39,885 nucleotides of DNA from a virus: IMG/VR virus record IMGVR_UViG_3300032132_000019, positions 1-39,885 of that record; one strand, given 5' to 3'. A program made the position numbers and the translations under genes. Below the pieces are notes generated by a model. That model worked only from the letters and a program-made list of their open reading frames with translations. It did no database searches and was not told where the DNA came from. Shown here one piece after another: positions 1-39,885 of this stretch; the stretch's first letter is position 1, and each line of letters begins with the position of its first letter.

Positions 1-127
1 TTTCCGCGGGGGGAGTGAGGGGGGAAACGGGAGGGGGAGGGGTCCGCCGACCCCCCAAGCGCCTCCGCCGTTTCTAGCGCGCGGCGGCCTCGGACCTGGT
101 CTCGAGCCGCCGACGTGACCTATCGGT
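1..127. repeat. Terminal direct repeat, left copy
   Basis: Bases 1-127 are identical to 39759-39885. An exact overlap of 127 bases at the two ends is typical of a circular contig closed at a fixed k-mer length, so this is most likely an assembly overlap of a circular or circularly permuted genome rather than a biological terminal repeat. The copy contains a G-rich tract and a hairpin, listed separately. Confidence 0.95.
8..54 (+). other. G-quadruplex-type tract followed by a hairpin
   Basis: Bases 8-42 contain successive G-runs of 6, 6, 3, 5 and 4 separated by short linkers of 5, 4, 1 and 1 bases, which fits the G-quadruplex pattern on the + strand. It is followed by a perfect 6-bp stem, GGGGTC (39-44) with GACCCC (49-54), around a CGCC loop. 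It lies in the largest noncoding stretch of the circular genome, between the end of the initiator gene and the first late gene. A role in packaging, replication or late transcription is inference only. Confidence 0.6.
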
Positions 128-155
128 AACGCGTTGGGGGGTCGAAAGATAGGTC
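117..155. repeat. Inverted repeat GACCTATC / GATAGGTC
   Basis: A perfect 8-bp inverted repeat, GACCTATC at 117-124 and GATAGGTC at 148-155, with a 23-base spacer. The flanking TATCGG (121-126) and CCGATA (155-160) are also complementary. It is downstream of the leftward initiator gene and upstream of the leftward late operon, so it could be an operator, a processing site or part of a packaging site. No function can be assigned. Confidence 0.45.
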
Positions 156-323
156 CGATAATAGACGTTCTGTTGAACTCGCGGCCGGAGAGCTCCGACC
201 CGTTTCGAGACGGTAACGCGCCCGTCTTCCCCTTCAGGCGCCGGACGAGTCGCGGATTCCGGACCGTCCCCTTCGTCTTTCCACACTCCACACGAGCGAT
301 ATAGCAGAGTCGACGGTTCGGAA
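128..323. other. Noncoding stretch after the initiator gene
   Basis: No convincing gene lies here. The only long open frame (minus, 74-346) starts inside the end of the initiator gene at a GTG and gives an arginine-rich peptide with unusual codon use. The stretch continues the 39643-39758 noncoding segment across the circle junction, making the largest gap in the genome (about 440 bp). It probably holds late control signals or the packaging site, but I see no clear sigma-70 promoter. Confidence 0.5.
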
Positions 324-1232
324 TCAAGAGGGGGACTCCTGAACACTTTCCGCGGTTCCGTTTGAGTCCTCGTCGACGCGTTCCGGAAAGAGTTCTTTAA
401 GCGCTCGATCGCGGAGGAAACCGGCGATCTGTCTTCCGTGAAGTCCGCGCCTCTTAGCTTCGTCCGTGAGCGTCTTTGCCTGTTCGAGCGATAGGACGGA
501 GGAGGCTATTCCCACCTCTCCGGGAGAGCCTCCGAGGCGCTCGAGGAGCTCCTTCACAACGCTACGGTTTCCGCCGTCCTCTTCTGCATACGGAGGGGAA
601 CGTTCCTTCTTAAACTCTGAACCTCTGAGGGGCGGTTCGGCCTCCTGTATTCCGTTGCTAGGCAGGGGATTAGGCTCGGAGTTTCCGGAAAGGCGTTCCC
701 CTAGTGGGAAACGCTCCGTTCCCGTAGTGGGGAACGGTCTTCCGGAAACCTTCTGGAAAGGCGTTGTTCGTGCGGACAACGCCTTTCCGGAATCCTCCGA
801 GGGTTCGGAGGCCTTCGGAGGAGGTACGTAGGACGGCGAACCAGGCGGTCCGAGGAGCGTCACCTCGACGGGTTCGTTCCCTGTTCTGGTCTCGCCTCTC
901 GCTATCAATCCGCCGGCCTCGAGCGTTGTGAGCGCGCGCGACACGGTCGACCGTCCGAGTCCTGTCCTGGCGGAGAGTTCTCGGAGCGGGAGCGCTATCA
1001 CGTACGGTTCTTCGCGTAGCGCGGCCTCGTCGAGGAGCGCCAGGAAGACGAGGATCGGCGAGAGCGCGGAGCCTCGGAACGCTAGCGGTTCGCCGGTTCG
1101 AGGGTTTGTGAGCGCCTCCGGCGACGCGTGCAGCGCCAGGAGGCGCGCGGCGGTCGACCGATAGAGTTTGTGCCAGGCGTGGGGACCTGGCGCTCCGGCG
1201 ATCGGACCCGATGGACGAGGGTTAGAACTCAC
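324..1232 (-). CDS. Winged-helix replication initiator (lambda O-like organisation)
   Basis: A 302-aa protein starting at GTG 1232. Residues about 80-116 form a helix-turn-helix/winged-helix (LSARTGLGRSTVSRALTTLE, then GGLIARGETR). The middle (about 130-215) is a Pro/Ser/Glu-rich linker, and residues about 220-290 form a second, helical domain rich in Leu and Glu. The DNA of the linker carries a dense set of TTCCGGAA palindromes and inverted repeats. A DNA-binding N-domain, an origin inside the linker and a C-terminal partner domain is the known layout of lambda O. The gene is divergent from the early operon. No helicase loader or helicase was found beside it, so host helicase recruitment is assumed. 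A transcription regulator is the main alternative. Confidence 0.65.
   Translation of the reverse strand: MSSNPRPSGPIAGAPGPHAWHKLYRSTAARLLALHASPEALTNPRTGEPLAFRGSALSPILVFLALLDEAALREEPYVIALPLRELSARTGLGRSTVSRALTTLEAGGLIARGETRTGNEPVEVTLLGPPGSPSYVPPPKASEPSEDSGKALSARTTPFQKVSGRPFPTTGTERFPLGERLSGNSEPNPLPSNGIQEAEPPLRGSEFKKERSPPYAEEDGGNRSVVKELLERLGGSPGEVGIASSVLSLEQAKTLTDEAKRRGLHGRQIAGFLRDRALKELFPERVDEDSNGTAESVQESPS
682..792. repeat. Iteron/palindrome cluster inside the initiator gene (putative origin)
   Basis: TTCCGGAA-type palindromes occur at 682-691, 740-748, 751-759 (one mismatch) and 784-792. Between them lie larger inverted repeats: GCGTTCCC/GGGAAACGC around 693-714; a perfect 8-bp repeat CCGTTCCC (716-723) with GGGAACGG (730-737); and a perfect 13-bp repeat, GGAAAGGCGTTGT (755-767) with ACAACGCCTTTCC (776-788), around an 8-base loop. 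The 11-mer GGAAAGGCGTT is also repeated directly at 687-697 and 755-765. A cluster this dense in the linker region of a DNA-binding protein gene suggests a replication origin bound by that protein. Confidence 0.65.
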
Positions 1233-1254
1233 GAGCGGCGATCCTGGTCGATTG

Positions 1255-1304
1255 TTTCCGGAAAGTCGAGGTCGTTCTTCCGGAAAGTCAGTAGGTTTCC
1301 GGAA
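1255..1304. promoter_or_regulatory. Three TTCCGGAA operator-like sites in the divergent intergenic region
   Basis: Palindromes lie at 1255-1264 (TTTCCGGAAA), 1278-1286 (TTCCGGAAA) and 1296-1304 (TTTCCGGAA). Their centres are 22 and 19 bases apart, about two helical turns, and two are followed by GTC. They sit between the divergent starts at 1232 (-) and 1371 (+) and match the sites inside the initiator gene, so the initiator probably binds both places and controls one or both promoters. No clear -35/-10 pair was found, so the promoters are inferred from gene layout. Confidence 0.6.
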
Positions 1305-1370
1305 TCAAGGTGTGTCCGGCGGCGCTCGTGGGGAGCGACCTCGAGGCACCAGAGAAGGACCCGAAAGACC

Positions 1371-1880
1371 ATGAACGACCCCCGAGAGAACGGTCCGGCC
1401 GAAAAGAGCGACCGTCGTACGCCGATGGCGCGCGTGATCGACGAACTAGCGGCCGGCGCCGTGTTGACCTGTGCGGAGGCCGGCGCCGCCTGGTCCGGAG
1501 CGCGCGAAGACGGATCGACGTTCCGCGTCGACGGCCGGACGATACGCGTCCTCCGTCGCGATTTCGCGAATCTCCTGTTCGAGCGCTCGGTGCAGACGAT
1601 CACCTCGGCGTTCCGGATCCTCGAGCGGCGCTCCGACGGCGCCGACCGGATTCTCGAAGGCGACGCGGCGCCGGCTACGGCGATCGACCTTACGGCGCTC
1701 GGAGAGGCCTCCGACGCGTTCGACGCCGAGGAGGACGCCGCGGAGGAGGCCGACGCTATCGCTCGCGTTCGACGCCGAATTGAGATCCTCGCGGCGAGTC
1801 GCCTTCGGACGACGGCCGAGAACGAGGAGCTCTCCGCGCGCCGGCTCGAGCTCGAAGCGCTTGAAGGCGGTGCAGCATGA
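1371..1880 (+). CDS. Early protein of unknown function, first gene of the rightward operon
   Basis: A 169-aa protein starting at ATG 1371 behind AAGGA. I chose this start because the frame upstream is arginine-rich and crosses the operator region. The N-terminal half has mixed composition. The C-terminal part (about 110-169) is strongly charged and probably a coiled coil, with Glu/Ala/Asp runs and then repeated Arg-Leu-Glu. No enzymatic motif is visible. It overlaps the next gene by ATGA. As the first gene after the TTCCGGAA sites, it may be directly controlled by the initiator; this is inference. Confidence 0.7.
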   Translation: MNDPRENGPAEKSDRRTPMARVIDELAAGAVLTCAEAGAAWSGAREDGSTFRVDGRTIRVLRRDFANLLFERSVQTITSAFRILERRSDGADRILEGDAAPATAIDLTALGEASDAFDAEEDAAEEADAIARVRRRIEILAASRLRTTAENEELSARRLELEALEGGAA

Positions 1881-2725
1881 GTCCGGACGCCGCCGCGAAG
1901 GCCGGAGTCGCCGCATATGGTAGAAGTCCCGCCGGCGCGTACGCCGCGGCCGCTCTCGTGTTGAACCTCTCGACGGAGCCGAGCGAGTCGTGTTTCGGGA
2001 TCTCCGGCGCGCGGACACTCCTCCGGCGCGCGCTCGGTAAGGAACCGCGCGTAGCGGTCGCCGCGAACGCGAAGGAGGCGTTCGACCTGGTCGCGCGACA
2101 CCTCGACGACGACCGGCCCGTAATGACCGGAACTCCGGCTAATAAGCGGTCCGCGGCGCCGAAACCGGGATCTATAGAAGTGCTCGCGGACCTCTACGGC
2201 GGACGCCAGGCTATTACAGTCGGCGCCAAGAACGAGCGCCGACGCCGTGAGGCTTTGGAGCGCGAAGAGGCCGCGGAGAAAGACGCGCGCATCTCCGGAG
2301 CCGAGCTCGCCGCGATCCTCCGTGACGAGGTTCTCCCTCTCCTGGTCGATCCGAAGGCGCTCCTCCGGGTCGAAGAGGCGTCTCAAAACGCCGGCCTCTC
2401 GTGTCGAGAGGCGTTGATCGAGAAGGTTCAAACGGCGCTCGAGCGTCGCGCCGCGGAGGCCGGTCGCCGATGGCGCGAGCGCCAGGAGCCGACGATCTCG
2501 ACGCGTTCTCTCGGAGAGGCCGCCACAACGGGGAAGGCGGCCGTCGAGGTGTCGTTCCCGTCGAACGCTCCTCCGAACGTAGAGCTCTCGATCGACGACG
2601 CGAATCGGATCCTCACGTTCCTCGAGTTCGGACAGGGGTGCGCGCGACCGGATCAGGCGGCCGTCGAAGAGCGACTCGAGGCCGCTATTGAAAACGCCGC
2701 CGCTCGGAAGGCCGGTGAACGGTGA
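1877..2725 (+). CDS. Unknown early protein with central charged helix
   Basis: A 282-aa protein whose ATG overlaps the preceding stop (ATGA at 1877-1880). The first 30 residues are Ala-rich, and residues about 120-210 are highly charged and helical (many Arg, Glu and Ala), as in a coiled coil. The C-terminal 60 residues are mixed and end with an acidic-basic helix. I recognise no family. Its place in a tightly coupled early operon, ahead of small regulators and recombination genes, suggests an early host-takeover or DNA-metabolism role, which is inference only. Confidence 0.75.
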   Translation: MSPDAAAKAGVAAYGRSPAGAYAAAALVLNLSTEPSESCFGISGARTLLRRALGKEPRVAVAANAKEAFDLVARHLDDDRPVMTGTPANKRSAAPKPGSIEVLADLYGGRQAITVGAKNERRRREALEREEAAEKDARISGAELAAILRDEVLPLLVDPKALLRVEEASQNAGLSCREALIEKVQTALERRAAEAGRRWRERQEPTISTRSLGEAATTGKAAVEVSFPSNAPPNVELSIDDANRILTFLEFGQGCARPDQAAVEERLEAAIENAAARKAGER

Positions 2726-2892
2726 TGGAACGCTCGGAAGATTGGAGGCGCCAGGAGTCCGCCGGCTGTTTCTTCTTGATCGCCGGAGCTCTCTCCTCCG
2801 CAAGTGTTTGGGCCGCTTGCGGCGCGACTTGGGGCCTTTTTTCGGGAGCTCTCTTTTTTCTCTATTGCTCGATCCGGACAGCCGGACGATGA
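2725..2892 (+). CDS. Small membrane protein, 55 aa
   Basis: A 55-codon ORF starting at ATG 2725 in a TGATG overlap with the upstream gene; a GTG at 2722 is also possible. Residues 1-14 are polar and charged (MERSEDWRRQ...). Two hydrophobic stretches then follow (about 16-31 and 33-48, small residues, Trp, Phe), and the end is RTAGR. It fits a one- or two-pass inner-membrane peptide. Coupled overlaps at both ends support it. The function is unknown; a membrane-acting early protein such as an exclusion peptide would fit, but nothing proves it. Confidence 0.6.
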   Translation: MERSEDWRRQESAGCFFLIAGALSSASVWAACGATWGLFSGALFFLYCSIRTAGR

Positions 2893-3239
2893 ACAAGGAA
2901 CTCCCTCCGCGTGGCCGCCTGGTCGATCCGAAAACGTTCTTTCCGGAGGACGTCGCGTCGTCGAGCCTGAAACCGTTCCACTACATCACGCCTCCGCCGC
3001 CAACGTCTCTCCCGGAGGAAGTCGCGCGTCTCCGTCGAAAAATCGCCGCGGCGTTCTGCATCCCGGAGGATTTTTTACGAGAGCTCGGCCGCGCTCGAGA
3101 ATGGCCTTCGTTGATCATTCTCGACGAGATCCGTTGTTCTCGCTACGTGCGGCGCGTAAGGAATCGCGCTCTCCTCTCCTTCCGGCTCCGCTCGAGCGGC
3201 CGCCGTCGATCTCCTGGTTTCACAAAGGTCCGCCGATGA
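2889..3239 (+). CDS. Unknown 116-aa early protein
   Basis: It starts at ATG 2889 and ends at 3239, with ATGA overlaps on both sides. The N-terminal half is polar and Pro-rich, including a short TPPPPTSLPEE segment, followed by a charged helix with Arg-Arg-Lys and an IPEDFLRELG stretch. The C-terminal third becomes Arg/Ser-rich, and another frame there also has good codon use, so the last 40 residues are less certain. No domain is recognised. Confidence 0.55.
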   Translation: MNKELPPRGRLVDPKTFFPEDVASSSLKPFHYITPPPPTSLPEEVARLRRKIAAAFCIPEDFLRELGRAREWPSLIILDEIRCSRYVRRVRNRALLSFRLRSSGRRRSPGFTKVRR

Positions 3240-3556
3240 ATTCGAAGACGACAAACGCAAATCCCGGCCTCGAGCGCCTCCGCGCTTACGCGACCGGCCG
3301 GCGGAGCGGCGTAACCGGCGCCGACCTGGCCGAGGCCTCCGGACTTAACGCGCGCGTCCTCTCCGAGGCGCGAACCGGACGACGGAACCTCACGGCGGCC
3401 GAGGCGGAACAGGTTTCGGAGGCTACGGACGCCCTCGACCTCCCCGTCTTCGCCGGCGTGACCGCTCTCGACGTCCTCGGCGTGTTCGGCCTCCGGTCGG
3501 ATAAGTTCCGCCGCCTGGCCGAGGCCGAGGCCTCTCCGGAGGCGGCGCCCGAATGA
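3237..3556 (+). CDS. Small XRE/Cro-like helix-turn-helix protein
   Basis: A 106-aa protein starting at ATG 3237 (ATGA overlap). Residues about 26-65 have the pattern of a lambda-repressor-type HTH: LAEASGLNARVLSEARTGRR, then LTAAEAEQVSEAT, i.e. a first helix, a turn with Gly, a recognition helix, and the 'R-x-L-T-x-x-x-A' helix. The C-terminus (to about 106) is hydrophobic then acidic, possibly for dimerisation. It is probably a small DNA-binding regulator of the early or late switch. The inference rests on this pattern alone. Confidence 0.6.
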
Positions 3557-4751: not shown

Positions 4752-5179
4752 AGTTTCAGATTGAAGAAAAAGGAGCGATCGGAGAGCCGACGCACCGAAT
4801 AGCAATCCTCGTCGAGGTGAAGGTCGACGACCTGGTCGCCATGTCGTCGACGTCGGCCGCCGGAACCGCGCTCGAGAAAATCAGGATTCCACATCCGGCA
4901 TCACAATTCCGCGGCGCGGCCTTCGCTCTCGAGATTCTTTCGACCGCGACGGAACTTGGTCCGCCTCGGCCGAGCCTCGGCCCGTTGTTCGACGGTTCGA
5001 GGCCGAAGGCGCGCGTCGAGGTCGTCGATAGGAAGTCGCGCGCGGCCGGCGAGCGCGCCACGGACGCTCCGGAGAAGACTCCGGCGCGGCGCGGTTTGAG
5101 TAAGTCTCCGCCGGCGAGGAGTCCCGCGGCGCGGCCGGCGAAGAAGAGGACCGCGAAGAAGAGGACCGCGAAGAAGTGA
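4748..5179 (+). CDS. Unknown protein with histone H1-like basic tail
   Basis: A 143-aa protein from GTG 4748 (GTGA overlap). Residues 1-90 form a mixed domain (KFQIEEKG, then RIAILVEVKVDDL). Residues about 90-143 are rich in Lys, Arg, Ala and Pro and end in a repeated KKRTA unit, the composition of histone H1-like or phage DNA-binding tails. It is directly upstream of the exonuclease and coupled to it by GTGA, so it may be a DNA-binding partner of the recombination module. That role is inference. Confidence 0.6.
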   Translation: MKFQIEEKGAIGEPTHRIAILVEVKVDDLVAMSSTSAAGTALEKIRIPHPASQFRGAAFALEILSTATELGPPRPSLGPLFDGSRPKARVEVVDRKSRAAGERATDAPEKTPARRGLSKSPPARSPAARPAKKRTAKKRTAKK

Positions 5180-6102
5180 CAATCGAGCGCGACCATTCAG
5201 GCTACGCCGTCGCGACGCCTCGAGCGTACGTGGAGACGTTTCCCGGTCGTCGCGCCTGGTTAGCCGGCCGTCGCGCCGGGATCGGCTCGAGCGACGCGCC
5301 GGCTCTCTTTGGACTTACGCCGCAATGGTCCGGCGCGTATACGGTCTGGGGGTCAAAGGTTCACGGATTCGATCCGCCGGTCGGAGGATCCCGGATCGCG
5401 TTCGGAGTCCGGTTCGAGGATCCGATCGCGGAATGGGCGGCCGAGGACTACGGATATTCCTACGCGCCGATTCGGAAGTTCTCGACGTTCAGGCATCGAA
5501 AGATCGGGTTCCTTCAGGCGACGCCGGACCGATTGATCATGGCGAAGGACATCCGCGGACCAGGCGTCGCGGAGATCAAGACGGATAACGTCGGCGACTC
5601 GGCGACCTGGCGCGACGGCGCTCCGCTCCGCATCGAGGTTCAGCTTCGGCACCAAATGCTAGTGACCGGCCTCCGGTGGGGAGTCGTGATAGTTCTCCTC
5701 CGCGGTCCGGAGCTCCGCGCGTTCGAATACGAACGGAGCGCCAGGTTCGAACGTCTCGCGGTTCGAAAGTTCTCGCGGTTCTGGTTCGACAACGTCGAAA
5801 AAAAGAAAGCGCCTCCGATCGACGGTTCGCCAGGAACCGCGGCGCTCGTTCGCGCTCTCTATCCGACCGAAAACGGAGTGTCCGTCACACTCCCGGAGGA
5901 GTCGGAATCCTGGCGCCGTAGGTATCACGCGATCGGTGCGAAACTCCGCTCTCTCTCGAATGAACGCGAGGAGATCAAAAGTCGGTTTATCGGCGAGCTC
6001 GGAGAGAACTCGTTCGGACTATTTCCTGACGGCCGGCGCGCGTCGTTCAAGACGTCGGAAACCGGCCGCCGCCTTTACGTTCCAAAACCTCGAGGAGAAT
6101 GA
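5176..6102 (+). CDS. YqaJ/lambda Exo-type recombination nuclease
   Basis: A 308-aa protein from GTG 5176. It has the PD-(D/E)xK layout of the YqaJ viral recombinase family: RRAGIGSSDAPALFG near residues 32-46, GVRFEDPIAEW (about 77-87), FLQATPDRL with Asp118, AEIKT with Glu133 and Lys135, and QLRHQ at 156-160. These match the metal-binding Glu/Asp, ExK and Gln positions of the family. The enzyme is expected to resect double-stranded DNA 5' to 3' and hand single strands to the annealing protein encoded four bases downstream. The order nuclease then annealing protein is typical of phage recombination pairs. Confidence 0.85.
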   Translation: MTIERDHSGYAVATPRAYVETFPGRRAWLAGRRAGIGSSDAPALFGLTPQWSGAYTVWGSKVHGFDPPVGGSRIAFGVRFEDPIAEWAAEDYGYSYAPIRKFSTFRHRKIGFLQATPDRLIMAKDIRGPGVAEIKTDNVGDSATWRDGAPLRIEVQLRHQMLVTGLRWGVVIVLLRGPELRAFEYERSARFERLAVRKFSRFWFDNVEKKKAPPIDGSPGTAALVRALYPTENGVSVTLPEESESWRRRYHAIGAKLRSLSNEREEIKSRFIGELGENSFGLFPDGRRASFKTSETGRRLYVPKPRGE

Positions 6103-6105
6103 ATC

Positions 6106-7608
6106 GTGAAAGTTGAAAACGCGGTCGCTACCTACGATCCGGCGTCGCCGGCGCCGGCTCCGGCGTCCGACCTCTCGCCGGGTTTGCAGCTTGCGGCGGA
6201 GTCGCTTGGAACTAGCCAGGCCGCCGCGATCGCTCGCGAAACCGGGAAGATTCAAGCGGCGTTCGTCATGGCGCGACATCATCCGCGCCAGGAGGCCGAG
6301 GCGGTTCAGGCTATCGGGAAGGCTTGCGCGAATGTCCGGCTCGCCGATGAAGCCTTGTGGAGTTTTCCCCGCGGAGGAAAAACGCTCTCCGGACCGTCTA
6401 TCCATCTCGCGCGCGCCGCGGCGGTTTGCTGGAAGAACATTTCGTTCGGCTTCGACGTCGAAGGACGGGACGAGGACTTCATCAACCTATCGGCGTATGC
6501 GATCGACTGTGAGGCGAACGTTCACGCTCGCGCCTCTCAACGGGTCCGCCGCCTGATTCAGCGAAAAGTGTACGTGAACGGAGAGAAGCGGACGGAATGG
6601 GTTCAGCCGGACGAGCGCGACGAGCTCGAGCTCGTGAACCGCGTCGGATCGAAACTCGTTCGGCGGTGCATCTTCGAAGTCGTTCCCTCCTGGTTCATCC
6701 GGCTCGGAGAGGAGCGCGCGAAAGCGACCATGAAGGCCGGCCTAAAAAACGCGAAGACGCGCGACGACCGGATTCGAACGGCGTTGATCCTCTTCGCGGA
6801 CCTGGCCGTTACGCCGGATATGATTACGAGGAAGTTCGATAGCCAGGTCGCCGAACTCACGGCGGATCAAATCGCGGAGCTCCTCGCGATTTACCAGTCG
6901 ATGAGCTCCGGCGAGCTCTCGCGCGAACAGGCGTTTCCTGTCGAGGCGTCGGAGTCGAAGATCGTCGACCCGGAGGCCGAGGCGAAGGCTACCGTCGAGC
7001 TCGAGGACATCATGTCCGAGGAGGAGGCGGCCGCGGACGTCGAGCGGACGAAGGCAGAGACGACGCCGGCGACGCGATCGGACGGCGCTCCGCCCGATGG
7101 TCCTTACGCCGGGATCTCGACGGAGGATCTCCGCGTCGAACAGGCGCGACTCGAACAAGGCATCGTGAACGGGAACGCCGCGGATTCGAAGCGACTGAAG
7201 GGAGAGCGCGCGAGCGTCCTCGTCGAGCTCGAGCGGCGCGAAGGAGCTCCGGTCGCGGAGCCGGCCGAGGAACCGGAGGAGCCGGCGCCGAAGGCGAAGG
7301 CGAAGGCGAAGGCGAAACCGGCCGGACCGAAACTCGTCGAACCTGATCCGACGCCGGAGGACGAGGAGCCGGAGGACGAGGAGGCGCCGTCGGACCCGTC
7401 CGCCGAGGCGTCGCCTTTCGGTTCGCGAGACGAAATGTTCGCCGAACTTCCGACGTTCCTCGAGGACGAAAAGATCGCCGGAGCCGCGCGCGCCATCATC
7501 AATTCGTTCTGCAAGTCGCGGAAGATCAAGAAGGTTCGCGACCTCGAGGACCAAGCGCTCGCCGCGCTCCTCGGCAAGTTGCACGATCTGAAGTCCGTCT
7601 CGGAGTAA
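6106..7608 (+). CDS. Probable single-strand annealing recombination protein
   Basis: A 500-aa protein from GTG 6106. The N-terminal 270 residues carry a conserved phage pattern: ARHHPRQEAEAV, then DEALWSFPRGGK, SGPSIHLARAAA and ELVNRVGSKLVRRCI. I know this type beside Exo-like nucleases, where a RecT/Erf-class annealing role is expected; the assignment is by position and pattern, not proof. A long acidic, Lys-Ala-rich linker (about 300-445, with KAKAKAKAK) leads to a C-terminal helical domain (about 445-500). This is long for a RecT-like protein because of that extension. It is followed by a strong terminator. Confidence 0.65.
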   Translation: MKVENAVATYDPASPAPAPASDLSPGLQLAAESLGTSQAAAIARETGKIQAAFVMARHHPRQEAEAVQAIGKACANVRLADEALWSFPRGGKTLSGPSIHLARAAAVCWKNISFGFDVEGRDEDFINLSAYAIDCEANVHARASQRVRRLIQRKVYVNGEKRTEWVQPDERDELELVNRVGSKLVRRCIFEVVPSWFIRLGEERAKATMKAGLKNAKTRDDRIRTALILFADLAVTPDMITRKFDSQVAELTADQIAELLAIYQSMSSGELSREQAFPVEASESKIVDPEAEAKATVELEDIMSEEEAAADVERTKAETTPATRSDGAPPDGPYAGISTEDLRVEQARLEQGIVNGNAADSKRLKGERASVLVELERREGAPVAEPAEEPEEPAPKAKAKAKAKPAGPKLVEPDPTPEDEEPEDEEAPSDPSAEASPFGSRDEMFAELPTFLEDEKIAGAARAIINSFCKSRKIKKVRDLEDQALAALLGKLHDLKSVSE

Positions 7609-7690: not shown

Positions 7691-8407
7691 ATGTCCGAAA
7701 TTCCAGAGATTCACGTTCCGGAAATCGTCCAGCCGGGATCCGACGCGCCAACGCTCGAGGCGCGCGGTTCCGTTCTCGAGCTCGTCGAGACGGCGATCGC
7801 GTTCGAGATCACGGACGACGCGAGCGACGCCGCCGGCGCGAACCTACTCGCGCAAGTGTCGACGCTCCGGAAGGCGGTCGAGGAGCGCCGAAAGGAAGTG
7901 ACCGGACCTGTAAACCGTCTCGTGAAGGAGACGAACGACGCGTATCGCTCGATATCCGCGCCGCTCGACCAGGCCGAGAAACACCTAAAGGCCGCCTGGT
8001 CGAAGTATCGGAAGGCGAAGGCCGAGGAGGAGGCGCGCGCTCGAACAAAGGCGGCGGCCGAGGCGGAGGCCGCGCGCCAGGCCGAGGAGGAGGCGGCGGA
8101 CGACGGCGACGTTATGGCGGAGCTCGAGGCCGCCGGGAAACGCGCCGCGCTCGAGAGGTCGGCGCGAGAGGTTCCGGTCGCCGAGGCGCCGGCGCGGTCC
8201 GTGAAGACTGTCGGAGGCGGAACCGTTCACACTCGGCGAAAGGCGAAATTCGAGGTCGTCGACGCGAAGAGGGTTCCGCGGAACTTCCTGATCGTGAACG
8301 AGAAAGCGATCGGCGCCGCGGTCCGCGCCGGCGTTACGGAGATCGACGGCGTTCGGATATGGACGGAGGACGAGGTTTCCGTCCGGACCGCGGGAGGGAA
8401 GTCGTGA
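7691..8407 (+). CDS. Coiled-coil recombination-module protein
   Basis: A 238-aa protein from ATG 7691 behind a strong GGGAGGG site. Residues about 30-115 are helical (DAAGANLLAQVSTLRKAVEE, later LVKETNDAYRSI), about 115-160 an Ala/Glu coiled coil, and about 175-238 a small basic domain (TRRKAKFEVVDAKRVPRNFL, then GAAVRAG, DGVRIW). The last domain is common in proteins encoded beside phage RecT/Exo modules, with no defined biochemical role. Position after the terminator suggests separately tuned expression. It ends in GTGA with the next gene. Confidence 0.7.
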   Translation: MSEIPEIHVPEIVQPGSDAPTLEARGSVLELVETAIAFEITDDASDAAGANLLAQVSTLRKAVEERRKEVTGPVNRLVKETNDAYRSISAPLDQAEKHLKAAWSKYRKAKAEEEARARTKAAAEAEAARQAEEEAADDGDVMAELEAAGKRAALERSAREVPVAEAPARSVKTVGGGTVHTRRKAKFEVVDAKRVPRNFLIVNEKAIGAAVRAGVTEIDGVRIWTEDEVSVRTAGGKS

Positions 8408-8679: not shown

Positions 8680-9149
8680 GTTTCGCAAAGTTCAAAGGTC
8701 GCGGACACGGAACCGCGCGGCCGATGTTTCTCTGCACGAACTGCAAAGTCCTGTCCGAAGTCGCGATCGAGAAGGACGGCGAAGGCCGGAACCGTCACGG
8801 CGTCGCCGAGTGTCGCGTTTGCGGACGGTTCGACGGGATCAAGTTTCCGTCGAAGACGGAGGCGCGCGTTTATCTCGAACTCCTCGAGGAGCTCGAGGAC
8901 GGCGACCGACTCTATCGCCAGGTTCGTTTTCCCCTCCTGAACCTGGCGCCGGTTCCCGCGGAGGAGCGCCAGGCCGGAACGCCGCGGTCGTTCTCGGTCG
9001 ACTTCGTGATCGTCCGCGCCGGCGGAGAATGGGAAGCGATCGACGCGAAGGCGAAGAATTGGAAGTCGCGCGAATGGGATCGCGGCCGCGCGGCGTTCGA
9101 AGCGTGTTGGAAGATTCCCATTCAGAAGAGGCGGTCGCGGACCCGATAG
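8676..9149 (+). CDS. DUF1064-like nuclease with N-terminal zinc ribbon
   Basis: A 157-aa protein from GTG 8676 (GTGA overlap). Residues about 19-48 have two Cys pairs (CTNC and CRVC), as in a zinc ribbon. Residues about 54-150 follow the DUF1064 pattern of a restriction-endonuclease-like fold: KFPSKTEARVYLELLEEL, FPLLNL, SFSVDFVIV and WEAIDAKA with an acidic-x-Lys element. The family is thought to contain Holliday-junction-type or structure-specific nucleases of phages. It would complete a recombination set with the exonuclease and annealing protein. The zinc ribbon extension is unusual. Confidence 0.7.
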   Translation: MSFAKFKGRGHGTARPMFLCTNCKVLSEVAIEKDGEGRNRHGVAECRVCGRFDGIKFPSKTEARVYLELLEELEDGDRLYRQVRFPLLNLAPVPAEERQAGTPRSFSVDFVIVRAGGEWEAIDAKAKNWKSREWDRGRAAFEACWKIPIQKRRSRTR

Positions 9150-33972: not shown

Positions 33973-34562
33973 GGAGAACCTCCGGCGGCCGCGGCGCGGA
34001 GAGCCTCGGCGTCGATCTCGGCCGGAGAGGAGGACTCGAGCGCCTCGAGCCGGGAGAGGATCAAGGAGAGGACCGCGGCCGTATCGGATTCCGGAGCCTC
34101 GACGCCTTCAGGCGGAGGAACCGGAGCCGGAGATCCCGGCGCGGCCGGCGGAGCTCGAGAGCCGCCGATCAGGCCTCCGGTTTGGGAAGCGAGGACGCCG
34201 GCCAGGATCGAAACGAACGCCTCCGTTTGAGCTTGAAACCGATCGTTGTCGCGACCGCGCGCGCGCTCCGCGGCCGAGGAGTCGGAGCCGGATCCGAACT
34301 GTCGATATCGGCTCGCGCCGTCGGCGTCCGTTTCGTCGATCAGGAGTTCGACCGCCTTGTCCGCCGTCGTGAAATACTCGAGTTCCATCGTCGAAGCGCC
34401 GATCGCGGCGGCGTCCGGCGCCTTCCCGGTCGTCGCGACGTAGAAGGCCGCGGCGTCGCCTCGGAACTCGAGACTCGTTCCTATGCCAGTGAGTCCGGCG
34501 AGCGTGTTGCAGCCGGTCGCCGAGGCGGCGACCAGGATCAGGAGGAGGAGGTTCGTTCTCAT
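33969..34562 (-). CDS. Phage-encoded lipoprotein
   Basis: A 197-aa protein from ATG 34562. The first residues MRTNLLLLILVAASATGC end in a signal-peptidase-II-type box, with the acylated Cys18 after Ala-Thr-Gly. The mature part is helical with a Pro/Ala stretch (about 135-155) and a final helix (LSLILSRLEALESSSPAEID). It lies between the phospholipase-like gene and the beta-helix gene, overlapping both by ATGA. Possible roles are an outer spanin-like part of lysis or superinfection exclusion. It has no clear spanin family match. Confidence 0.7.
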   Translation of the reverse strand: MRTNLLLLILVAASATGCNTLAGLTGIGTSLEFRGDAAAFYVATTGKAPDAAAIGASTMELEYFTTADKAVELLIDETDADGASRYRQFGSGSDSSAAERARGRDNDRFQAQTEAFVSILAGVLASQTGGLIGGSRAPPAAPGSPAPVPPPEGVEAPESDTAAVLSLILSRLEALESSSPAEIDAEALRAAAAGGSP

Positions 34563-35659
34563 TCGTCGTCTAACTCCCTTTCGATCAAGTTCGCAAAACG
34601 CCGCGCGGCGTGTTGCGTAAGTGTCCCCGTCGCCGGGTCGATCGCGAACCGGCGGTCCCTAAGTCTCTCCGCGTTCTTCAGACGGCGCCGGCGGCGAACC
34701 GCTCGAGCCGGAGAGCGCGCGTGAACAGGCGGCCGCGCCAGGCGCCAATAGTGACCGCCGAAGACGCGGACGACCGTGAAGTACACGAGTCCGATAGCGA
34801 CGTAGAACGGCGTTTTCGCGACGCCTCGAACTCCGCCTTCGCGCCATCCGCGGAGCACAAAACACGCGAGGAACCGGAGGTCGGCGACCAGGCGCGAAAC
34901 GACCTGTTCCGAATAGTCGACGTCGTGTCTCGAGCAACACGGCGAGAGCTCGAGTCCGAGGATCCGGTCCGGAGCGCGCGTGCAGTAGTCCGTCAAGAGC
35001 GGAACTCCTCTCCTCGCGACGGCGAGGAACTCGACCTCGTCCGGCGTTAGACCAGGTCGCGACGGCGGAGGAGGAACCGGCGTTGATCGGCGAGCTCCGG
35101 CCCGCGGAGCTTCGACGTCGAGAGGATCTCCTCGACCTCCGCGCGCGCCGCCGCCTCGGCGCTCGGCTCGAGAACGTTCCTCGTCGTCGTCTCCTCCGTC
35201 TCCGGCTCCGCCTGGTCGTCCTCGGTTCTCTCGGCGTCGTTCATGTTCTCCGCTCCTCGTTCCTTCGCGCCAGGCCTCCGGGAGAAGGCCGCGCTCGGCG
35301 TCCGTGATCTCGACCCGTACGTGATACGCGTAGCGACCCGTCCATTCAACCGGAACGGAGTTCGCGCCGCGGCCGGCGGCGCCGAACACCTCGAGGAGAG
35401 TCGCGCGGATCAAGAGTCGGTGAGGGTTTAACCAAAGAGCGGACGGAACTCCGGGAATCCAGGCGGTCGCGTGCCAGAAGAGAGCGCCGCCGAGTCCGGA
35501 CCTCTCCGGATCCTCCGGTTCGACGTGAAGCGAAACGGCGACGGCGTAGCGGCCGCGCTCGAGGCGGCGACGGTAGAGCGCCGGAGGCGTCTCCTCTCCC
35601 TCTCCGAGAACCGTCGGATTGCCGAGAGCTACGGAGTGTATGCAAGTCCATTCCGTCAC
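34559..35659 (-). CDS. Fused ORF: unknown N-domain plus C-terminal phospholipase A2-like domain
   Basis: An open frame of 366 codons. Residues 1-130 are an unknown domain (ALFWHATAWIPGVPSALWL). The middle (about 135-210) is Arg/Gly-rich and looks antisense-like, and there another frame is the better gene. Residues about 215-366 contain TDYCTRAPDRILGLELSPCC and SRHDVDY, the CCxxHD site of phospholipase A2 with catalytic His-Asp, and then a hydrophobic segment (TPFYVAIGLVYFTVVRVFGG). A separate start for this part is TTG 34996, eight bases after AGGAGAGGAG. So either one fusion protein or two proteins are made; I favour the separate start. Confidence 0.55.
   Translation of the reverse strand: MTEWTCIHSVALGNPTVLGEGEETPPALYRRRLERGRYAVAVSLHVEPEDPERSGLGGALFWHATAWIPGVPSALWLNPHRLLIRATLLEVFGAAGRGANSVPVEWTGRYAYHVRVEITDAERGLLPEAWREGTRSGEHERRRENRGRPGGAGDGGDDDEERSRAERRGGGARGGRGDPLDVEAPRAGARRSTPVPPPPSRPGLTPDEVEFLAVARRGVPLLTDYCTRAPDRILGLELSPCCSRHDVDYSEQVVSRLVADLRFLACFVLRGWREGGVRGVAKTPFYVAIGLVYFTVVRVFGGHYWRLARPPVHARSPARAVRRRRRLKNAERLRDRRFAIDPATGTLTQHAARRFANLIERELDDE
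35047..35244 (-). CDS. Overprinted acidic 65-aa protein
   Basis: ATG 35244 has GAGGAG about eight bases upstream. The protein is acidic with a Glu/Thr segment (EPETEETTTRNVLEP) and an Ala/Glu helix (AEAAARAEVEEI), ending in a basic RRFLLRRRDLV. Its codon use is normal for this genome, while the overlapping frame of the larger ORF is arginine-rich here. It therefore looks like the genuine gene in this segment, located between the N-domain and the phospholipase-like domain. Confidence 0.5.
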   Translation of the reverse strand: MNDAERTEDDQAEPETEETTTRNVLEPSAEAAARAEVEEILSTSKLRGPELADQRRFLLRRRDLV

Positions 35660-39642: not shown

Positions 39643-39758
39643 CACGCCTCCGATCACGTTCGAGAAAGGGGACCGCGCACCTCGACGACGACGCGCCGCG
39701 GAACTCCACACAACACGCGTGCAGCGATTTTTAAATTCGAGAGTAGGACTTTCCGCAG
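39643..39758. other. Noncoding upstream region of the late operon
   Basis: No gene is seen. It contains an isolated AT-rich tract (39727-39737, ATTTTTAAATT) and two tandem TTTCCGC units (39750-39756, 39759-39765, period 9) just before the G-rich tract. The late promoter for the leftward block is probably here or in the first 320 bases, since transcription of the 39642 gene must start to the right of it. No convincing -35/-10 pair could be named. Confidence 0.5.
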
Positions 39759-39885
39759 TTTCCGCGGGGGGAGTGAGGGGGGAAACGGGAGGGGGAGGGG
39801 TCCGCCGACCCCCCAAGCGCCTCCGCCGTTTCTAGCGCGCGGCGGCCTCGGACCTGGTCTCGAGCCGCCGACGTGACCTATCGGT
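39759..39885. repeat. Terminal direct repeat, right copy
   Basis: Exact copy of bases 1-127. It means the late operon at the right end is joined directly to the noncoding region and initiator gene at the left end. One copy should be removed for a true genome length of about 39,758 bp. Confidence 0.95.

Follow-up and report, generated by a model that had tools for sequence, protein, structure and literature searches.

A putative lambda-O-type replication origin within the initiator gene of an orphan phage

We analyzed a viral stretch of 39,885 nucleotides (the window) and found a dense cluster of repeats and palindromes at positions 682-792, within a leftward gene encoding a winged-helix protein. 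It is likely that a lambda-O-type, protein-dependent theta origin lies here, inside its own initiator gene, 324-1232(-). Mid-gene repeats are present in other initiator genes, and the least stable DNA of this gene lies 3' of the cluster. Therefore, the layout corresponds to a lambda-O-type in-gene origin with new iteron sequences, in a hairpin-rich form with promoter copies that is unusual. The phage belongs to an orphan lineage, without close relatives in the collections searched, and the analysis supplies a testable origin for it.

The contig and the putative initiator protein

Bases 1-127 of the window are identical to bases 39759-39885 (127 bp). Thus, the window represents a complete viral circle of 39,758 bp; judged from its length, the terminal repeat is probably an assembly overlap. 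The GC content of the phage genome is about 64%. The leftward gene set includes terminase, portal, head, tail and DNA methylase genes. Its first gene is 324-1232(-), which is separated from the first rightward gene by a divergent intergenic region. The features are as follows.

324-1232, minus strand: putative replication initiator, 302 aa, GTG start (Pfam, PHROG, AlphaFold2, BFVD)
381-388: another TTCCGGAA, close to where the initiator gene ends (3')
569-628: least stable 60 bp of the gene, putative DNA-unwinding element, directly 3' of the cluster in the sense of the gene
682-792: repeat/palindrome cluster in linker-encoding DNA, putative initiator-binding sites (iterons)
683-697, plus strand: repeat unit u1, TTCCGGAAAGGCGTT
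740-748, minus strand: repeat unit u2, TTTCCGGAA, then GACCGTTCCCC; forms an outer 9-bp stem with 682-690, enclosing two hairpins
751-765, plus strand: repeat unit u3, TTCTGGAAAGGCGTT
778-792, minus strand: repeat unit u4, TTCCGGAAAGGCGTT
693-714: hairpin, GCGTTCCCC-loop-GGGAAACGC
716-737: hairpin, CCGTTCCC-loop-GGGAACGG, 8-bp perfect
755-788: hairpin with 13-bp perfect arms
1256-1304: three TTCCGGAA sites (1256, 1278, 1297) in the divergent intergenic region upstream of the initiator gene
3236-3556, plus strand: small HTH repressor-like gene (HTH_3; phrog_2328, 3.4e-5) in the rightward early region
5176-6102, rightward: YqaJ/RecE-type exonuclease (profile scans)
6106-7608, rightward: RecT-like family protein (profile scans)
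7691-8407, rightward: second exonuclease-like protein (profile scans)
8724-9149, rightward: resolvase-like protein (profile scans)

The first-pass annotation had described 324-1232(-) as a winged-helix gene of lambda O-like size, and the protein analyses agree with this description. Pfam detected an IclR/MarR-type winged helix above the cut-off (HTH_IclR, 3.4e-7; MarR_2, 1.3e-6). The PHROG matches were weak (phrog_270, 1.7e-4; the O-like phrog_678, 5.7e-4; phrog_391, 0.019), and those carrying a function were mostly replication initiation families. The single-sequence AlphaFold2 model (mean pLDDT 57.5) comprises a winged helix at about residues 54-126 with moderate confidence and the secondary structure H-E-H-H-E-E, a disordered linker at about residues 128-217, and a well-predicted helical C-domain at residues 219-285. 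Thus, both Pfam and the model place a winged-helix DNA-binding domain at the N-terminus. In BFVD, the named structure matches included phage replication initiators, replisome organizers, O proteins and HTH proteins, with E-values of about 1e-5 to 1e-3 and large rmsd. In PDB, they were winged-helix regulators and two entries (4pt7, 4pql) with the titles 'initiator' and 'N-terminal domain of DNA binding protein'. The winged-helix profile matches are partly to generic regulators. Searches with the whole protein and its domains gave no usable close homologue in the viral, genome, phage and plasmid collections, and the plasmid sequences contained no match to the initiator.

The phage proteins scanned included no recognisable helicase, helicase loader, primase or polymerase; therefore, the phage probably relies on the host replisome. 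Among the neighbours of the initiator gene that were scanned, none matched a lambda P-like loader or a phage helicase, and a divergent loader could evade the profiles. Structure prediction for the divergent neighbour 1877-2725 was uninformative, and the terminase and RecT-like queries returned distant relatives only. Elsewhere, 34559-35659(-) has a weak phospholipase A2-like match (PF09056, below the cut-off) together with phrog_6098.

The repeat cluster and the distribution of TTCCGGAA

The cluster encodes residues 147-183, which are inside the disordered linker. The four TTCCGGAA-type sites, the two perfect inverted repeats and the repeated 11-mer noted in the first-pass annotation were all recovered. 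Three copies of TTCCGGAA are exact (683-690, 740-747 and 785-792), and TTCTGGAA at 751-758 is TTCCGGAA with one mismatch. The 8-bp inverted repeat is formed by CCGTTCCC (716-723) and GGGAACGG (730-737), and the 13-bp inverted repeat by GGAAAGGCGTTGT (755-767) and ACAACGCCTTTCC (776-788). For the 11-mer GGAAAGGCGTT, 0.02 copies would be expected in the window, and exactly three are present, at 687, 755 and 778(-). The units are arranged as two inward-facing pairs, u1(+)/u2(-) and u3(+)/u4(-). The former surrounds the hairpins 693-714 and 716-737, and the latter is one long hairpin. Among the repeat pairs of the cluster, 76% are inverted. Since most of them are inverted, peptide repetition cannot be the source of the repeats. 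On its 3' side, about 55 bp separate the cluster from the least stable 60 bp.

In the window, TTCCGGAA occurs nine times against 2.0 expected, and none of 100 shuffles reached nine. Seven of the nine copies are inside 381-1304 (924 bp), four in the gene and three in the divergent intergenic region. Within 1 kb, none of the other 8-bp palindromes is clustered as strongly. The refuting outcome named in the first-pass annotation, a motif of equal frequency in the rest of the genome, was not observed. The copies at 1256, 1278, 1297 and 381 were missing from the list of the first-pass annotation. No DnaA boxes were found.

Codon bias and GC-rich DNA yield some repeats, and chance of this kind has to be considered. 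In shuffles of synonymous codons, which keep the protein and the codon usage, four or more TTCCGGAA in the gene were never obtained (0/2000). Within 200 bp, the gene has 17 repeated 10-mer pairs, a number that no shuffle attained (0/1000; mean 1.5). The 8-mer-only statistic was not significant (53 of 300 shuffles reached the observed value); thus, the repeat excess consists of the longer repeats and the named motif. For the longer repeats, chance with codon bias is already refuted by these shuffles, and the fold of the single-stranded cluster (-40 kcal/mol, z -8.0) also argues against it. The probability that we assign to this explanation is close to nil.

The palindrome score of 682-792 was exceeded by no sampled 111-bp stretch of the genome. 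As RNA, the cluster folds with -64 kcal/mol (z -7.8), as would be expected of a structured mRNA segment, an attenuator or a translation regulator, acting in the transcript. However, symmetric palindromes fold alike as DNA and RNA, there was no Rfam match and no terminator-like site in 1-3000, and at the level of the class the repeats are mostly direct and fold more weakly. A function in the transcript is therefore very unlikely. The disordered linker could also tolerate the insertion of a dense palindrome, that is, of a selfish repeat element. Against this, the 11-mer and the 15-mer of the cluster are absent elsewhere in the phage genome, TTCCGGAA marks the promoter region too, and mid-gene repeats are a property of profile-related initiators. 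We give the inserted element a slightly smaller chance than the transcript function.

The three sites at 1256-1304 may serve as operators, in autoregulation or as outliers of the origin. Most likely, the same protein regulates its own promoter through them, or they are an outlying part of the origin. They were compared with a tripartite operator of the CI/Cro type: the sites are nearly symmetric, lie 22 and 19 bp apart in a divergent intergenic region, and the adjacent early region carries the repressor-like HTH gene 3236-3556. Therefore, another protein might bind TTCCGGAA, and the 3236-3556 product is a candidate ligand of the promoter sites. All TTCCGGAA sites would then be operators of a transcription regulator, either this HTH protein or a solely regulatory winged-helix protein, with the promoter sites controlling the divergent early promoters and the in-gene sites being auxiliary. 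The best scores of the winged-helix domain, which are to IclR/MarR regulators, are in line with this explanation. A separate regulator would account for the three promoter sites only. It leaves the architecture within the gene unexplained, namely the hairpins and longer units, the location in the mid-gene linker common to other initiators, and the adjacent least stable DNA. In addition, the function-bearing phage profile and fold matches are mostly replication initiators. We consider the operator explanation, although it is the main rival, unlikely.

For the in-gene origin, we infer protein-DNA recognition, unwinding, helicase recruitment, autoregulation and origin function. Dimers of the winged-helix protein would bind the TTCC/GGAA half-site palindromes at 682-792, and the bound initiator would wrap the DNA and bend it. 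Opening would then take place in the adjoining downstream DNA of low stability (about 569-628), and the helical C-domain may recruit the host helicase machinery. At the 1256-1304 cores, the initiator may autoregulate its promoter, or these cores may form an extended or outlying origin. The points that we count against the origin are the generic winged-helix matches, the predominance of inverted repeats, the lack of a recognised P-like loader, the single-sequence model and the operator-like promoter array.

The cumulative GC skew reaches its minimum at 39716, which on the circle is some 0.7-0.8 kb away from the cluster; this counts in favour of the origin, although the position is confounded with gene direction. 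This minimum and AT-richer stretches are in the segment 39389-323 across the circle (about 690 bp), which has little convincing coding sequence.

Comparison with known systems and related initiator genes

In phage lambda, the origin is located in the middle of gene O, with O-binding iterons and an AT-rich tract (PMC7466680). Both the lambda origin and the Stx-phage origins resemble the putative one of the window: the initiator has about 300 aa with the order winged helix, linker and C-domain, at least four sites are in the mid-gene linker DNA, and low-stability DNA follows directly 3' (PMC7466680). As a positive control, lambda O gave 13 repeat pairs against 0.33, a cluster position of 0.42 and the same kind of fold signal. 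These results support the lambda O-type layout proposed in the first-pass annotation. The annotation had also suggested a new initiator-origin pair. The protein and the site sequence are indeed new to the collections searched, whereas the kind of origin is already known from lambda and Stx phages.

Several features differ from lambda. The sites of the window are based on TTCCGGAA and lack the lambda iteron sequence, which is a feature of the lambda subgroup only. The repeats are mostly inverted in the window and direct in lambda, and the hairpins of the window are much stronger (z -7.9 against -3.3). Furthermore, the window has identical cores at the initiator promoter too, no recognisable P-like loader gene is located downstream, and protein homology is not detectable past the winged-helix profile.

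Iteron plasmid initiators of the P1 RepA type combine a winged-helix initiator with repeated sites, and autoregulation via promoter copies is possible in them. Their iterons are outside the coding sequence, unlike the cluster of the window. The mycobacteriophage prophage replicons Miko and Rachaly encode a RepA with an HTH domain, and an origin upstream of or within the gene has been proposed (PMC7157519). Like the window, they thus have a phage initiator with an HTH domain and a proposed in-gene or adjacent origin; the context is that of extrachromosomal prophages, and no repeats were identified in the proposed origin regions (PMC7157519).

Because no close homologue was available for testing conservation of the exact repeats, we turned to a motif-blind set of 98 genes with a match to phrog_270 or phrog_2562. 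The genomes are nearly all from Actinomycetota, Bacillota, Bacteroidota and Pseudomonadota. In-gene repeats were taken as significant when the 10-mer repeat pairs exceeded those of codon shuffles at p <= 0.02. Such repeats were detected in 56 of the 98 initiator genes, in contrast to 3 of 76 neighbour ORFs. The centre of the cluster was at a median of 0.51 along the gene (IQR 0.43-0.57), and at 0.54 in the window. Of 51 sample genes, 36 had lower stability in the 3' flank than in the 5' flank. The least stable stretch of the gene immediately followed the cluster in 26 and immediately preceded it in 9. The initiator gene of the window, lambda O, L177 and L178 (the last two are viral loci described below) all have their least stable 60 bp directly 3' of the cluster. 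Comparable genes thus do have repeats at this place, and the second refuting outcome named in the first-pass annotation did not occur either; the repeat sequence is not common to the sample.

Most in-gene clusters of the sample consist mainly of direct repeats and fold more weakly, whereas that of the window is mainly inverted. Several other initiators also have palindromic clusters, and the fold signal of the window gene is the joint strongest among 64 genes. The survey suggests that lambda-style in-gene origins, with mid-gene repeats and a low-stability 3' flank, are a common feature of phage-like initiator genes in several bacterial phyla. If this is the case, origins could be predicted from the initiator gene alone, and vectors could be built for hosts that have none.

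TTCCGGAA in other viral and bacterial loci

When viral contigs were scanned for TTCCGGAA in closely spaced triples, 33 loci were obtained. In seven of them (L005, L006, L008/L177, L018, L026, L027/L178 and L032), which belong to several families and GC contents, the cluster is within an initiator gene recognised by PHROG. Of the control palindromes, TTGGCCAA was inside an initiator at one of 19 loci (L044) and TTCGCGAA at none of 14. Seven of 33 against the controls corresponds to a nominal one-sided Fisher p of about 0.03. The loci include near duplicates and the controls were assigned by visual inspection, so that the evidence for a preference of TTCCGGAA for initiator genes is weak. We also considered TTCCGGAA as the universal iteron of O-like initiators and rejected it, as it ranked 123 of 256 palindromes in the 98 motif-blind genes. 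Since it is not enriched there, TTCCGGAA is one recurrent site type and not a universal one. The literature searched contained no description of TTCCGGAA as an iteron.

The other viral TTCCGGAA initiators resemble that of the window in having the cores in the linker of winged-helix or O-like initiators, with protein similarity at the generic winged-helix level only. Unlike the window, they have no three-site promoter array within 300 bp upstream, and their spacing is often 21 or 11 bp, in direct orientation. L027/L178 and the window have in common the composite TTCCGGAA-N1-3-CGTTCC; in a set of about 2000 TTCYGGAA sites, this composite was rare. A specific kinship between the winged helices of the window and L027 proteins was rejected, the similarity being not above background.

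As a broader proposal, which we regard as doubtful, the TTCC/GGAA half-site palindromes may be a recurrent code of several unrelated winged-helix phage initiators in different hosts. Here, one initiator would use this code twice, at an in-gene origin that forms hairpins and at an operator of three sites on the divergent promoter of its own gene, joining lambda-type placement with autoregulation of the iteron-plasmid type.

Individual loci showed further arrangements. The high-GC viral initiator gene at L027:6500-7624(-)/L178 has nested TTCCGGAA-CCGTTCC palindromes in the linker and is the closest DNA-level analogue of the window cluster. In the initiator gene of L177, the viral record behind L008, repeated TTCCGGAA-N3-TCCGGAA pairs with 11-bp spacing lie directly before the least stable DNA of the gene. 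The winged-helix-like initiator gene L044:8799-9893(+) carries three 23-bp repeats centred on TTGGCCAA in its linker, another in-gene iteron type. At the 80 loci with TTCCGGAA triples that were inspected in bacterial genomes, mostly low-complexity coding sequence or other repeats were seen. Near 1.6 kb of L156, a Treponema MAG, there are 42-bp repeats built on TTCCGGAACGTTCCGGAACCG. In the viral contig L022, TTCCGGAA forms dense arrays, with 51 copies in 12 kb.
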